From contig NC_087381.1 in NCBI RefSeq assembly GCF_963675165.1, forward strand, positions 5,023,378 to 5,087,377: 64,000 nucleotides of DNA, given 5' to 3'. How positions within the stretch are numbered: position 1 is the stretch's first letter; every line of letters begins with the position of its first letter. The stretch is from Halichondria panicea. Lineage: Eukaryota > Porifera > Demospongiae > Suberitida > Halichondriidae. The notes beneath the pieces are model-generated. The model saw only the letters and a program-made list of their open reading frames with translations, was not told the origin of the DNA and did not search any database. The translations under genes were made by a program, and so were the position numbers. This document shows positions 2,446 through 10,192 of the stretch, one piece after another.

Positions 2446-2694
2446 GAAAATTAAATGAGGAAAGATCCGGCAAGAGCACATGAGTATCTTACTAAGGGGA
2501 TTCTGTATCGGCTAGCTATGTACAAATCACATCATATATAAATTAAGTCGGTTAGGCTGACTATTGGGTACTACCTGATTCTTCCAGGTACTACCTCAAA
2601 AAAGGAATTTCACACCTATTAAAACGGCAATAAAAAGCAATTGGCAATAGTGTGCAAAAACAAGAATAAAATGTGAGTGCAACAGCCTATAAAT

Positions 2695-3662
2695 TTAAAG
2701 TGGGTACTGCTCAGCTATATTTTCTAAAAGTTTTTCAAGTAAATCCAATGCTCCAAACCTTCTTCTCCACAGAAACTCAATAAGATATGTGGGGAAGAGG
2801 TTACTTGAAGTATTCATGACTCCTTGCTTTCTCATCATTCGTTTAGTGCATGACCAATGTCCCTCTACACTCTGGGTGTGAGCCCCGGTCACTGGATCAA
2901 CGAAGTTCTCTGAGTGGTTCACTGTTTGGTGGGTGTATCCAGAGATGCCAACGTCAAAGTAGGCACGCCATTCATCAGATATGACAGTTGTTCCAGGCCT
3001 GATATAAGTTTGGATTATTGGCATGAGAGTTTGCTTCGTCCTGTCAGGAACGACCACCATGAAAGCATTGGATGTTCCTCGCTCTATACCACCAAACACC
3101 CAGTGGCCATCCGTGACCCGCCCACGATTGTACCAAATTTGGACTCATCGATCTCCACGATTTTGCCAGGTCCACCTATCGTAATGGGAGAAGTAATGAA
3201 ATAATTATACATGCAAACAGAATGTGACTTACCAATCGTGATAGGGTGGGCAAGGAAATACTCGGCGCATATATCCCGAAAGAAGTTGAACCAATCGATT
3301 GCAACTCTCTGTGAGACTTTAGCTTCGATACTAGCCTCAGTCACTCTTTGCTGCCTAGACCAGAGATATACCAGCCTTAGGATGGTTTCGAAAGAAAGCT
3401 TTGTCTTGCTAAAAAAGCTTTTATCACGAATGCTTACTACTGCCTGGCACCCTTTTCGGGGACATCTCCAGGAGAAAGAATTTTTTCTCTTTACAATTCA
3501 ACAACTAGAAGAACATTTTCGACAGTCCATTGAAGAAGCAAGAAGATTCTTCCTCTGTAGCCAGTACATGATGTCTTCCTCATTCGTAAGAACTTCCTTG
3601 AGGAGATCAGCGTACGTCCAAGTTCTAGGAGTAGACAAAAGTGGTGGAGCCGCAGTAGCCAT
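2695..3662 (-). pseudogene. Merlin transposase (ISXO2-like DDE), two exons, inactivated
   Basis: Exon 1 runs 3662-3233 and exon 2 runs 3175-2695; the 57-base intron has a GTAAGT donor and TAG acceptor. Exon 1 encodes an N-terminal zinc ribbon (CRKC, later RCPRKGC) and a helical region. Exon 2 starts with GGPGKIVEIDESKFG, the first catalytic motif of the ISXO2 family. It continues through FGGIERG, ISDEWRAY (second Asp), VNHSENFVDPVTGAHTQ and the C-terminal WRRRFG. Lesions: an in-frame TGA about 48 codons in, and a small deletion with frameshift just after SKFG (~3133). The catalytic order is otherwise recognisable. The copy cannot encode an active enzyme. Confidence 0.88.
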
Positions 3663-3840
3663 TGAAGATTGAAAAATTGAGTGAAAGAGTTGCAGTTTGA
3701 TGAATGTGCATGGTGATTTCTTATATATGGTTCTGTTCCCTGATTTTGACCGGTATTGACATGCAACTATGGACTATGACTATGAATCCAATTAACACCT
3801 TTTAGCTGAAGCGATAAGTGTGAAATTCCTTTTTGAGGTA

Positions 3841-4036
3841 CAGTTGAGCCTCGGTTATCCGAACACCTTTGTCCCCGGGCCCATTCGGGTAAGTGAAATA
3901 TTCGGATAATCAAAAGCTGGCTTTTTGCCAGCCACGTGGGCAATTTCCTACTGCGCATGCTCAGATTGCACTATGCTCTGCATTCGGATAATCGAGGATT
4001 CGGATAACCGGGATTCGGATAACCGAGGCTCAACTG
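3841..4036. mobile_element. TA-flanked MITE (Tigger/pogo-like ends) inside the Merlin end
   Basis: Its ends are CAGTTGAGCCTCGGTTATCC and the inverse complement, with TA duplications at 3839-3840 and 4037-4038. There is no coding capacity. The ends resemble those of the two longer MITEs at 25702-26000 and 39550-39857 (CAGTAGAACCTCGATTATCC). TA duplication and CAG ends fit the pogo/Tigger branch of Tc1-mariner. Confidence 0.88.
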
Positions 4037-4309
4037 TAGTACCTGGAAGAATCAGGTAGTACCCATTAGTCAGCCTAACCATTAAGTCAAGTGCTGCTGA
4101 CATTATTCATTGTACTTCACTAGATCAAACACGTATCACAGCGCCTATATAGCCACACATGTACAGAGCACTTAGCACATTACAAGCAAGGAAGACGATA
4201 GTGAATCCGTATGGCGCGCCGTGTGTTTCAATAACAATGTCTGCATATACATAGGCGTGTCCTGGTGTGAATATACCGACATAGCATGCACGTGCAATGA
4301 TCGCCTTAT

Positions 4310-4660
4310 GCAGTGATCATGTCTGCACATGCAACCATTAGTCTCTGCACATGCAGTGATCATGTCTGCACATGCAACCATTAGTCTCTGCGTGTGCAGT
4401 GATCATGTCTGCACATGCAACCATTAGTCTCTGCACATGCAGTGATCATGTCTGCACATGCAACCATTAGTCTCTGCACATGCAGTGATCATGTCTGCAC
4501 ATGCAACCATTAGTCTCTGTGTGTGCAGTGATCATGTCTGCACATGCAACCATTAATCTCTGCACATGCAGTGATTATGTCTGCACATGCAACCATTAGT
4601 CTCTGCACATGCAGTGATCATGTCTGCACATGCAACCATTAATCTCTGCACATGCAGTAC
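4310..4660. repeat. Subterminal 43-base tandem repeat, left arm (~8 copies)
   Basis: The unit alternates CTGCACATGCAACCATTAGT and CTGCACATGCAGTGATCATG. Variants such as GTGTGCAGTG occur between copies. It is inverted relative to the right-arm array at 7988-8194. Repeated TGCACATGCA and TGATCA palindromes make transposase-binding sites a plausible inference. Confidence 0.92.
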
Positions 4661-5003
4661 AGTACAGGTGTACCTGAGTCCCATTGAGAAACATATACTT
4701 TGACCTGATGCAGCAGCTCTATTTAAAGCACGTGTATCAAAGATGTATTAAAAATTAATGATGGATATAATAGATGGTATGGACATGGATGAAGACGAAT
4801 CTGCCATTGAAGTACTCGGCTGGAACATATTTTGCATGTGCAGACATGATCATAGCCTCGACTCAAGTCCGCTTTACAGCGGCCTGGTATACCTTGTATG
4901 CGCATGCGCGAAATAATTCGTATATTTATCAGTATTACGCAAGTGATAAAATCTGACAAAGTACACAAAGAAAAAATACGTAAGACTGCGTGGTTGGTGG
5001 TAG

Positions 5004-7460
5004 AATGTTCAAGACAATGGCAGCCACCAGAATATGCAGATTGTGCTGCAACATTGTTACTTCTACTCGCTGCTCAGCTCTGTTCAGCAAAGAGTCTGTT
5101 CAAAGATGCCTTCCAGACAGACTTGGCAAACTGCTAGAGCTGCCAGTTAGTGAGTGTGATGGGCTATCTTCATACATTTGTAGAGCTTGCACAAACAAAT
5201 TCCAGTCTCTGGAGTCTAAACTTAAAGCCTTTAAAAGTATGGCTAAGTGTGGTTTTGAGCAGGGTCGAAATAAGGCTTCCATCTGTAGTCCTATGGTATC
5301 AGGTAGGAAGAGAACTAAAGACACCAGTGGGCTTGAAGCATCACCTCACACAGTCCATGCTAGACCTCTAGCAAAACGTCTGACAGTAGGAGCACCTGGA
5401 AGAAGGCTTGCTTTCTCAACCAGGGAGGAACGTAGGTTGATTGCAACAAATCATATATGTAGATGACAGGAATCATCTCTTTTTCATAGCGCACACAGAC
5501 TGTCCTCGTCAGCCACCGCTGTTAGAGTTGACCAATCTCGAGCAGTTTTCTTCTGTTGACGGTATGTTAAACCACCTACAAACGAAATGAACGTAAATTA
5601 ATATATAGCCATTAACTTAAAGGTTCAGAAGGTGTTGCAAGAGATATTTCCAAGCCTGGTTCGACTGAAACAGTTATGGTGAGGATAACAGATCTGATAC
5701 TGTAAACACACCAAAATCACACTAATTAATTAAACAATATACAGATCACAGTGAGCTCACCCAGTACAGTGACTGCGGAAGTAGATGAAAGTCTCCAGAA
5801 ATTACACCAGGCACTGAATAGTGGCAACATTCAGTCTATTGCCAAGGCAGCATTTTCTTGCCCTTCACTGAAGGACCAATTGGTAGAGGGTGTGGTGAAA
5901 ATTCTTGACGACGAATGTTCCACTCTATGTCGTAACTCTGGGGAGTTTGTCTCTCTATTTCACCGGGTTCCAATTGACAATGTGGAAGCGTTATCGTGGA
6001 AACAGGCTGTGTCTGAACTACAGCGAAAGTCTCCGATTCTATTTAGGCTTATCCAGACGATCGTAGGACGTTCAGATCATAGGAACTTGCATAAACGCGG
6101 AGAGAGTCGTGTATGGCCACAGCAATTCTCTTGAAAGAGCGTAACACAAGAATGTGTGGTATTCAGTCGTTTCTGTCTCTCGTACTCTTCAACTGTAGAG
6201 TAAACAAAAAGGTTTGTACATGTACATGTACATGTATGATGTGTGTCCACTACGTATTTTCAGATACAGGTATAATTATTATATCACAGAGAGGGATTGG
6301 AAACGGAAGTTACCTTGCCACGTTAGGCCAGGGTTTAATTGAGGCTACAAAATGTATGTATGATTGTAACGTTAGTAAAATCTAGACTAGATAGTGCCTG
6401 CAGTATACTCCCAACTGTCACCTGAGGAACGTATGGATTGACACATGCAGTACACTGATAATTAAGTATTACCATTAGCTAGAAGCATACTCATAAAGAT
6501 CTCAGAGCATGACACTCTTTGTAGCTATTTTGAAAAACGTATTTTTTCCAAAGGATGCTCACCATTATAGAGGGCATGAGAATGCATGTTGTTTTAGGGG
6601 GGCTTTGAATGCATTAATTGCAGTGGTCTTAATTCCAGAAACATCGTTTCCCCAAGTGCTGCACAACCGTACACAGATTTAAAAATTAATGTAACGCGAT
6701 GCTACCTCCGTTTCCAATCCATCTCCTCTTATATAATTATGATTACATTGAATTACTCACAGGTATACTCCAGGCTGAATCATCTTAGTGTCACTATCAG
6801 TTACTGTGCCGTGTTGAAGTTGGTCACGAAAATCAGCAAGCTGTACCAACGTCCTATCGATGCCTGGATTGATGAGGGTGCATGTTTCAAGTTCGTGGGG
6901 GACAACGTTGCTAAAACAAAGGGCGTTAGAGACATTCGTAGTGACCATCATGGTGAGCTAGTGCAAATGTACAGTTTGTTGGCAAAGGACCATCTCCAGT
7001 CTCAACCTTTTCCCCCCTAACCTGGGTTCCCTAAAAATAACTCACTTCCTTCCTACAAAGGCCGACATTGAGGGCATCCAAGAAAATTTGGTCGTTCTAG
7101 TCGGTCAAATACTGTGCGAGTACATCAAGCCCCTCCAGCGGTACAAACGGTGTGTTGTCAGTCACATTAAGCACCCCCACAGCACAGAGATGGCCAAAAA
7201 ATCTGAGGTTGTAGTCCTTGATGTTCTACACAAGAATGAGGCAAAGGCCGCAGACATGATAGACATAATGATCGAGAAACATTCATACTTGAAAGATTCT
7301 ATTGAACTTACTGTTATGTCAGGTGGCGATCAGATGACTTGTGAAAGACAGCGATGTAGCAAAAACATATGCGAGATGCGGACACTCGCAGTGGACGATT
7401 GGAGCAGTTAGAGCCTTGTATAGAGGACTGGCACTGCCTTATGAGTATTCTGGGGGTAGG
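5004..7460 (+). pseudogene. Zinc-finger (ZAD-like) plus DUF6589-like transposon protein, degraded
   Basis: The first exon (from ATG 5004) encodes RICRLCC, a Cys pair and CRACTNKF, a ZAD-like N-terminal zinc-binding module. The next exon (~5745-6211, shifting frame near 6105) has WKQAVSELQRKSPILFRLIQ and KERNTRMCGIQSFLSLVL. A GT donor at 6212 joins an exon at 6763 beginning VYSRLNHLSV, then FKFVGDNVAKTKGVRDIRSD. From ~7060 come IKHPHSTEMAKKSEVVVLDV, MSGGDQMTCERQR and, after another frameshift near 7375, LEPCIEDWHCLMSILG. From memory this series matches proteins grouped as DUF6589 in cnidarians, sponges and fungi. The C-terminal half is missing. At least two frameshifts make it non-functional. 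The family's catalytic role is not established to my knowledge. Confidence 0.75.
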
Positions 7461-7472
7461 TGAAGCACTCAC

Positions 7473-7844
7473 TTGGACTTCTTATCGACCCGTTTGTTTC
7501 CACTGAGTATACCAGCAGGAACACCACGATCATGTAGACTAGTCACTTGATCTACCATTAGAGACACTAGGGGACAATACTACGCTCACTAGGAGGAGAA
7601 CTAATTCTATCCAGCTTCTTGTCGAATAAAAAAGGCAAAGTTTGGTAGCAGATAGACTTTCATATCCAGTAGGAACCCACAGGAAAACATCATTCCCTTC
7701 GTACAGCATCCGTAGAGTGTCAAGCTGTTTATCCCTCAGAACTAAATGACTTCTCTTCACACAAGAAAGGGCATAAGCCAGAGCGGAAGAGAACTCAGTG
7801 TCAGTCGAGCTAGTCATCTTTGCTATATGTAAAGTGTGTAACAC
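7473..7844 (-). pseudogene. RecQ-like helicase N-terminal exon, degraded
   Basis: Reading on the minus strand, MTSSTDTEFSSALAYAL leads to LRDKQLDTLRMLYEGNDVFL and WVPTGY, the Q-motif and start of helicase motif I. The following GKS is lost (PTGYESLS). The frame then shifts through LPFLFDKKLDRISSPPSERS to VSLMVDQVTSLHDRGVPAG and ILSGN (motif Ia region), ending at a GTGAGT donor at 7472. DEAD/H and later motifs are absent, so this is a remnant. It converges on the DUF6589-like gene and lies inside the same inverted repeats. Similar stand-alone RecQ-like genes are abundant in sponge and cnidarian genomes, which would fit carriage by transposons. Confidence 0.72.
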
Positions 7845-7987
7845 GGACCACTAAAATTAGAATACAAAATAGTATACGTGTTTATTTTACTGACAGTATC
7901 CACAAATACACGGATTACCCCCTTTTGGGGTAATGTAAGCGCATGCGCATACAAGGTAAGGCCGCTTCTAAAGCGGCCTCGAGGCTA

Positions 7988-8194
7988 ACATGATCACTGC
8001 ATGTGCAGACATGATCACTGCACACGCAGAGACTAATGGTTGCATGTGCAGACATGATCACTGCATGTGCAGAGACTAATGGTTGCATGTGCAGACATGA
8101 TCACTGCATGTGCAGAGACTAATGGTTGCATGTGCAGACATGATCACTGCATGTGCAGAGACTAATGGTTGCATGTGCAGACATGATCACTGCA
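7988..8194. repeat. Subterminal 43-base tandem repeat, right arm (~5 copies)
   Basis: The same unit as at 4310-4660 in inverted orientation, part of the right inverted end of the DUF6589/RecQ element. Outward of it a ~100-base terminal block occurs twice in tandem (~8188-8290 and ~8291-8387). Confidence 0.92.
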
Positions 8195-8416
8195 TAAGGC
8201 GATCATTGCACGTGCATGCTATGTCGGTATATTCACACCAGGACACGCCTATGTATATGCAGACATTGTTATTGAAACACACGGCGCGCCATACGATCAT
8301 TGCACGTGCATGCTATGTCGGTATATTCACACCAGGACACGCCTATGTATATGCAGACATTGTTATTGAAACACACGGCGCGCCATAAATCCGCAATACT
8401 ATGCAGAGTAAGACGC

Positions 8417-8598: not shown

Positions 8599-10192
8599 GG
8601 CAACTCCAAGTGATACTCTGGTTTCTGGTCCACCGCCCGCATCAGATTTTATTCTTAGATTTCTATCTCATTATTGGATTTCTATCTCATTATTTCTACT
8701 ACGCATGCGCAGAATGATCCATGTTGGTACAAAATAGTGTGATAATGATATTCATTTGAAAAATAATGAGTTCATAAGGTGAAATTGATAATGACACAAT
8801 GAGAAAAGCCGCCCGCCCGCTATGGGGGGTGATCAGTGCCAAAACCTCCAGTTCTTTTTATTTAGTACTAAAATTATTTGCATGGTGAAGTTCTACATAC
8901 AAATGACACGCTCTCTCTTGTTTGCATGGTGAAGTTCTACATACAAATGATACTCTCATTTGCATGGTGAAGTTCTACATACAAATGACATGCATGCTCT
9001 CTCTTGTTTGCATGGTGAAGTTCTACATACAAATGACATGCACGCTCTCTCTTATTTGCATGGTGATTTTCTACATACAAATGATACTCTTATTTGCATG
9101 GTGAAGTTCTACATATAAATGATACTCTTATTTGCATGGTGAAGTTCTACATACGATGAAAGTTCTACATACAAATGAGAAGTTCTACATACAAATAACG
9201 CTTTGTTAGTTTTACAATGACACTCTCATATATATTTGCATTGACTTGAAACCACTCCCTTTTTCATCTATAAGGAAGGGCTCGGATGAAAAAGGGAAGG
9301 TTGGAATACAATTAGAACAAACCACTATAACTACATAATGTGTGGGTGTTTATTCAGCTTTGATCCCAGACCGTCAGAAATGTATTTTATACTCGAGGCT
9401 ATATAGCAACAGAAATAGTACATGCGTGAGTGGTGGCACGCAAGTTGTTAGGACGTTAACATTGTGGGAGCGTGACATTCTTCACGCATGCCCCTATAGG
9501 ACAACTGTAAATTTATAGTGGCATGTTGAAGGAGGACACAATTAACATTATAGTATAGACGGACATTTTAATTAACATATCAACTACGTGTTGGACACGC
9601 CCGCTCATGTGGCAATCCTTTTTGGTCACATAAGTGGGCATGTCCAATAACGGAGTTAAAAAAATTACTCTCTCCCCTGAGCCTTTTCTTAGATGAAAAG
9701 GGGAGTAGTTTCCAGTTTAGCAAATTAACTATGCAAATGCAGAGTATCATTTGTATGTAGAGCTTCACCATGCAAATGAGAGTATCATTTGTATGACTTG
9801 TAGAACTTCACCATGTAAATGAGACTATCATTTGTATGTAGAACTTCACCATGTAAATGAGACTATCATTTGTATGTAGAACTTCACCATGTAAATGAGA
9901 CTATCATTTGTATGTAGAACTTCACCATGTAAATGAGAGTATCATTTGTATGTAGAACTTCACCATGCAGATGAGAACTTCACCATGCAAATAAGAGAGA
10001 GCGCGTCATTTGTATGTAGAACTTCACCATGCAAATAAGAGAGAGCGCGTCATTTGTATGTAGAACTTATATGCAAATGATTTTAGTACTAAATAAAAAG
10101 AGCTGGAGGTTTTGGCACTGATCACCCCCCATAGCCCGCATGCAATTAGAAAAACTTCAGGACCAGAAACCAGAGTGTCACTTGGAGTGGCC
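8599..10192. mobile_element. PIF/Harbinger-like non-autonomous element in the Copia LTR
   Basis: The ends are GGCAACTCCAAGTGATACTC and an inverse complement with one mismatch in the first nine bases (GGAGTGGCC). The 3-base duplication TAA (8596-8598, 10193-10195) fits Harbinger. There is no transposase. Both arms are built of inverted tandem repeats, and the centre holds a further inverted pair around CCCTTTTTCATCTA. It must be younger than the Copia insertion. Confidence 0.85.
8878..10075. repeat. Inverted arrays of a ~35-45-base tandem repeat
   Basis: Left array ~8878-9200: repeated TTGCATGGTGAAGTTCTACA followed by TACAAATGA and variable TCTCTCTT linkers. Right array ~9735-10075: the inverse complement. 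The arrays lie subterminally in the Harbinger-like element. ATTTGCAT and its complement recur at every boundary. Confidence 0.92.

Follow-up and report, generated by a model that had tools for sequence, protein, structure and literature searches.

The question raised by this locus, a stretch of 64,000 nucleotides from the sponge Halichondria panicea (contig NC_087381.1, positions 5,023,378 to 5,087,377; hereafter the window), is whether the inverted ends and the two convergent gene remnants found between its positions 4204 and 8393 belong to one transposon. A preliminary description had joined them into a single mobile system of apparently undescribed composition, in which the DUF6589-like protein would be a candidate transposase or partner and the RecQ-like helicase an accessory. 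Analysis of the window and of the host genome indicates that the locus is very probably a nested pair, namely an AcademH-type inner element lying in a non-autonomous IS3EU-type outer element. The features reported earlier are thus real, but they do not belong to one element.

The outer element starts with TATGGCGCGCC and finishes with GGCGCGCCATA, and AATCCG flanks it at 4204-4209 and 8388-8393 as a 6-bp target-site duplication (TSD). Its arms (4208-4505 and 7998-8295; 298 nt) are inverted and 98% complementary, and within each end lies an array of 43-bp repeats (4308-4658 and 7998-8195); in all of these points the preliminary description was accurate. Between them, the inner transposon of 3135 bp (4853-7987) is equipped with its own inverted ends, TAGCCTCGA...TCGAGGCTA, and its own 9-bp duplication, ACATGATCA, at 4844-4852 and 7988-7996. 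Since ACATGATCA comes from the 43-bp repeat of the outer element, the inner element was inserted into the right-hand array of the outer one. In addition, the homology of the window element to gene-bearing copies, compared at three loci, stops at 4853 and at approximately 7979-7987, short of the TATGGCGCGCC ends. The features of the locus are as follows.

4204-4209, no strand: left copy of the outer 6-bp target duplication AATCCG.
4210-4852, plus strand: left part of the outer element, comprising the terminal inverted repeat (TIR), the 43-bp array (4308-4658), the central part and the beginning of the right array (4833-4852).
4844-4852, no strand: left copy of the inner 9-bp target duplication ACATGATCA, part of the outer 43-bp repeat.
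4853-7987, plus strand: inner transposon, an internally deleted AcademH-type element of 3135 bp, TAGCCTCGA...TCGAGGCTA.
4853-4909, plus strand: inner left TIR, matching the far end of loci L001, L002 and L005 in inverted orientation.
4984-5466, plus strand: open reading frame (ORF) for the N-terminal domain of the DUF6589 gene, which is zf-AD-like with a Cys2...Cys2 pattern (E=1.8e-4, below the cut-off).
6598-7411, plus strand: remnant of DUF6589, split between two overlapping frames that carry the candidate catalytic D1 (GDN) and D2 (GDQ); the exon of the candidate E is deleted.
7477-7478, no strand: internal-deletion junction, at which bases 4629-7084 of L001 are missing; common to 15 of 17 copies.
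7478-7850 (about), minus strand: convergent RecQ-like helicase remnant, N-terminal part.
7939-7987, minus strand: inner right TIR, with two short gaps relative to L001 and limits set by eye.
7988-7996, no strand: right copy of the inner 9-bp target duplication ACATGATCA.
7997-8387, plus strand: right part of the outer element, comprising the 43-bp array and the right end, whose terminal 94 bp occur twice in tandem (8200-8293 and 8294-8387).
8388-8393, no strand: right copy of the outer 6-bp target duplication AATCCG.

The two elements are also separate elsewhere in the host genome (131 Mb). A 20-base pattern of the outer ends, with two or fewer mismatches, was found 47 and 48 times (95 matches), compared with 0 and 0 for the backward control, and these matches exceed chance. 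Ends with no more than one mismatch number 66 and form 23 close pairs of 0.6-4.1 kb, and the 29 ends with two mismatches bring the number of pairs to 31. Among 66 positions tested against them, a DUF6589 locus is enclosed by the window pair only (1/23, or 1/31 with the two-mismatch ends), and none of the other 22 pairs holds one. No inner sequence was found in the 12 other outer copies read (the ten tested for TSDs, L038 and L039). Conversely, the other 16 copies of the inner family lie at least 17 kb from the nearest outer end with up to two mismatches. Both findings that the preliminary description had named as refuting it, ends that do not carry the genes and genes that lie outside such ends, are thus observed. 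A query made by joining the window flanks with the inner element removed aligned across the insertion point in nine of ten outer copies, which represents the empty site.

With respect to known kinds of transposons, one study gives TA..TA termini and usually 6-bp duplications for IS3EU (PMC10045372), and a second gives TAYGG..CCRTA termini for fungal IS3EU families (PMC12730594). The termini TATGG...CCATA occur in the window and in all ten outer copies, but the window alone counts as independent, because the other copies were retrieved by these ends. A perfect 6-bp TSD flanks the window element and seven of the ten other copies tested, which were taken from the 22 other pairs, and one copy has a TSD with one mismatch. 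The outer element shares these termini and the 6-bp TSD with IS3EU and differs from it in the lack of a recognised transposase, the long subterminal 43-bp arrays and the doubling of one end in the window copy; it fits a non-autonomous IS3EU element, and an autonomous partner may be present elsewhere. The doubling in the window, which the preliminary description does not mention, is a perfect tandem of the terminal 94 bp, so that two right ends stand in a row. Among the other copies, a long one (L038:959-2824) contains a 621-amino-acid ORF that is reverse-transcriptase-like by eye, either another insertion or a captured piece. Directly outside the outer element, at 8875-8990, lies a short tandem repeat of 38-44 bp.

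The inner element belongs to a family of its own. The DUF6589 stretch of the window is present in 17 genomic copies including that of the window, and the long matches to its RecQ stretch (40 scored of 193 first-look candidates) fall at the same 17 loci. Under a fixed rule, an exact 9-bp TSD was read in all 13 copies for which both ends could be located, and the TIR measures approximately 57 bp in the window family. The long form is kept in only two of the 17 copies: L001, of 5643 bp, and L002, which is fragmented and has no findable left end. The remaining 15, including the window copy, have one internal deletion in common, spanning bases 2653-5108 of the L001 element; lost with it are the exon of the candidate glutamate of the catalytic set and the greater part of the helicase gene. 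Twelve of these 15 have both ends, and their 9-bp targets differ. This is most simply explained if one deletion form was multiplied by proteins made elsewhere. Matches to the right end only (approximately the last 130 bases) are commoner and account for 22 of the 40 scored places of the RecQ-stretch search; at five such places (L059-L063), an inner-like right end adjoins a left end in an inverted arrangement.

The two convergent remnants in the window could be identified as described earlier, by different routes. The DUF6589 piece on the plus strand passes the Pfam cut-off of 27 (E=3.8e-10, 39.5 bits). The RecQ remnant by itself matched no helicase family and no PDB entry, and its identity comes from homologous ORFs in full-length copies; the L001 ORFs match DEAD, Helicase_C and RecQ_Zn_bind, and in PDB they match WRN/RecQ structures. 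As for the ZAD-like zinc finger, a zf-AD-like piece is seen on the plus strand, but its 22.1 bits (E=1.8e-4) do not reach the Pfam cut-off of 28.

The pairing of DUF6589 with RecQ is genuine and extends beyond this family. The 92 DUF6589 matches in the genome reduce to 63 loci, of which 14 are deletion copies of the window type, and at 32 of the other 49 a convergent RecQ match lies downstream within 4 kb. Four other DUF6589 and RecQ families, with two copies each, have ends that start with TAG and finish with CTA in all four, and seven of their eight copies show an exact 9-bp TSD under the fixed rule. Their TIRs are 69-82 bp long in families L003, L009 and L013; in family L011, a search for long inverted ends gave none, and short matching ends only were found. 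The two genes have a common history, in that the identity matrices of the DUF6589 and RecQ proteins correlate across 12 families (r=0.935 after four near-duplicate copies were dropped, a value reached by 0 of 10000 permutations; 0.974 for all 16). Between L009 and L013, nonsynonymous differences (pN) are far below synonymous ones (pS) in both RecQ (0.26 vs 0.74; the ORF was found in three of six pairs) and the DUF6589 exon (0.267 vs 0.782), with silent sites near saturation. On balance, the helicase and the DUF6589 protein appear to travel together and to be kept together, and with the pairing, the 9-bp TSDs and the shared history, the earlier proposal of one mobile unit with DUF6589 as its likely transposase is supported, without the TATGGCGCGCC ends and the 6-bp duplication that had been assigned to it. 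One pair of copies in these families (L003:2069-7417 and L004:1925-7273) is 99.9% identical, and six loci share DUF6589 scores and open RecQ frames of 396 amino acids; this suggests that the family moved recently. Scans of viral contigs for relatives suited to structure prediction gave none.

The DUF6589 protein has candidate features of a transposase. The motifs [GA]DN and DWH, and an E with an H no more than two residues further on, are present in all seven DUF6589 elements examined, and GDQ.T in six (L009 lacks it); the D, D and E are a candidate DDE catalytic set. The N-terminal Cys2...Cys2 pattern, found in L001, L003, L006 and L013 of six tried, probably represents an end-binding domain. 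It is therefore likely that DUF6589 is the transposase of the DUF6589 and RecQ unit.

The genome also contains a second DUF6589 type. In L006 the domain lies in a single ORF of 1732 amino acids, and L007 is nearly identical with the same frame open. The termini of both are CAGT...ACTG, and the 4-bp TSDs are GAAC and TGAA (2/2 copies whose borders were read; another locus of this type, on C3, was left out). The pair (L006:1664-7882, 6.2 kb, and L007; contigs C9 and C14) is 99.7% identical and has a Cys-rich tail. The C-terminal part of L006 shows XPG-nuclease-like motifs by eye only, with no model match. The 1732-amino-acid ORF gave no XPG match in Pfam or in PDB, where a two-sequence profile returned one unrelated chain (E=1.3), and an XPG_I search of the host genome gave 13 matches, none of them at DUF6589 loci. 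Elsewhere, a local cluster (L045-L047; C13:3752339-3866203) holds six long open frames of 588-601 amino acids with an XPG_I-like domain.

These two types appear to correspond to the two reported kinds of Academ. According to one study, AcademH duplicates 9 or 10 bp and AcademX 3 or 4 bp, and this difference is linked to the encoded helicase or nuclease, respectively (PMC10045372). The inner family shares with AcademH a helicase gene, terminal inverted repeats and the 9-bp TSD. It differs in that the window copy is internally deleted and non-autonomous, with broken genes and only the start of the helicase gene kept, and in that its transposase is tied here to Pfam DUF6589. The AcademX nuclease is presumably XPG. 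L006 and L007 resemble AcademX in the single DUF6589 ORF, the 4-bp TSD and the XPG-like motifs seen by eye, and differ in lacking a RecQ of their own, in the CAGT...ACTG ends and in lying outside the window, their nuclease being putative; they look like an AcademX-like family that was recently active. The inner element is of a known kind, since AcademH is reported to be marked by a helicase and a 9-bp duplication, and it is filed as AcademH-type because one transposase-like family spanning both duplication types fits Academ. Since a DUF6589 family without a RecQ of its own gives 4-bp TSDs, as reported for AcademX, DUF6589 is probably the Academ transposase. This link was not found in the literature searched, in which PF20231, the accession of DUF6589, appears only in one unrelated paper; its novelty is a modest claim because subscription papers and Repbase notes lay outside the search.

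Several observations weigh against this interpretation. Regarding the nesting, the alignments to the empty site fall in part within repeats; their identity is 85-96%, they contain as many as 23 gap openings, and none was obtained for L019. The 6-bp TSD is not perfect in three of the ten outer copies, being off by one base in one copy and unlike in two. A transposase was not recognised in any outer copy whose ORFs were listed: inspection by eye, with no transposase model run, of the outer-copy ORFs (the longest others being in L015, L038 and L039) revealed no IS3EU transposase, and the ORFs of the related-family copies L040 and L041 (the latter partly N), also read by eye, included no recognisable one. 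Four of the 17 inner copies (L002, L033, L035 and L037) have no findable end and were excluded from the TSD count. Regarding the pairing, no RecQ match was found near 16 of the 49 DUF6589 loci, and at one further locus of the single-ORF type (C3:3629098) the RecQ match stands in another arrangement and belongs to a neighbouring pair. The duplication of one copy in the four additional families, L011, is exact at 8 bp rather than 9 bp, and the DUF6589 exon of L055 and L056 shows no constraint (pN 0.119 vs pS 0.123). Finally, membership in AcademH is judged from composition and TSD.

Three other explanations can be weighed against this evidence. It is improbable that RecQ is a passenger, that is, captured cargo not needed by the DUF6589 elements. 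The 16 loci without a nearby RecQ match, which include five of the six single-ORF loci, would agree with dispensable cargo; among the unpaired loci, however, some are fragments and six are of the single-ORF type, and some RecQ genes may have been missed because the search used the C-terminal half of a single protein. The convergent layout at 32 loci, the gene history shared by 12 families and the low pN relative to pS of RecQ between L009 and L013, at near-saturated silent sites, argue against a passenger.

Still less probable is that the DUF6589 and RecQ elements form a separate, undescribed superfamily sharing a helicase and 9-bp TSDs with AcademH by chance. The comparison with AcademH was made by description, and the name DUF6589 was not found in the literature searched, both of which leave some room for this explanation. 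On the other hand, the combination of a helicase with a 9-bp TSD matches the marks reported for AcademH, and the single-ORF DUF6589 family of the same genome has 4-bp TSDs, a value reported for AcademX (PMC10045372). The composition that the preliminary description took to be undescribed is there already attributed to AcademH, and the proposed new superfamily is absent.

Lastly, a single composite element with TATGGCGCGCC ends and a 6-bp TSD, carrying DUF6589 as transposase and RecQ as accessory, agrees with the intact end pairs around the genes in the window and is rejected as highly implausible, because the other outer end pairs hold no DUF6589 locus, most of the outer copies aligned show the empty site, the other 16 gene copies lie 17 kb or more from any outer end found, and the inner element has ends and a 9-bp TSD of its own.

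Under the nested arrangement of an AcademH-type element in an IS3EU-type element, the best model is as follows. The non-autonomous IS3EU-type element (TATGG...CCATA, 6-bp TSD) was inserted first, and a deleted, non-autonomous AcademH-type copy then entered the right-hand 43-bp array of this element and duplicated 9 bp there. In its full form, the inner family encodes two convergent genes, one for a ZAD-like zinc-finger DUF6589 protein and the other for a RecQ-type helicase. The DUF6589 protein, most likely a DDE transposase, would bind the TAG...CTA ends and perform cutting and joining by DDE chemistry. The RecQ-type helicase would probably assist transposition by opening or remodelling the ends, the gap or the target. 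Full copies would have mobilised the deleted form of approximately 3.15 kb in trans. The sequences themselves show the nesting, the ends, the TSDs, the pairing, the shared history and the spread of the deletion form, whereas DDE chemistry, the part played by the helicase and movement in trans are inferred. It is also tempting to speculate, tentatively, that one DDE core (DUF6589) works with either of two helpers, a separate RecQ helicase giving 9-bp duplications and a fused nuclease-like domain giving 4-bp duplications. In that case the distance between the strand-transfer sites, or the gap repair from which the duplication results, might be governed by the helper and not by the core alone.

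These results remove a false new superfamily and provide Pfam DUF6589 with a likely function, that of the Academ transposase. Such an assignment would make proteins that are now termed uncharacterised recognisable as transposon genes. Furthermore, as one genome contains both AcademH-type and AcademX-like elements built on a shared core, the cause of their differing duplication lengths becomes testable.

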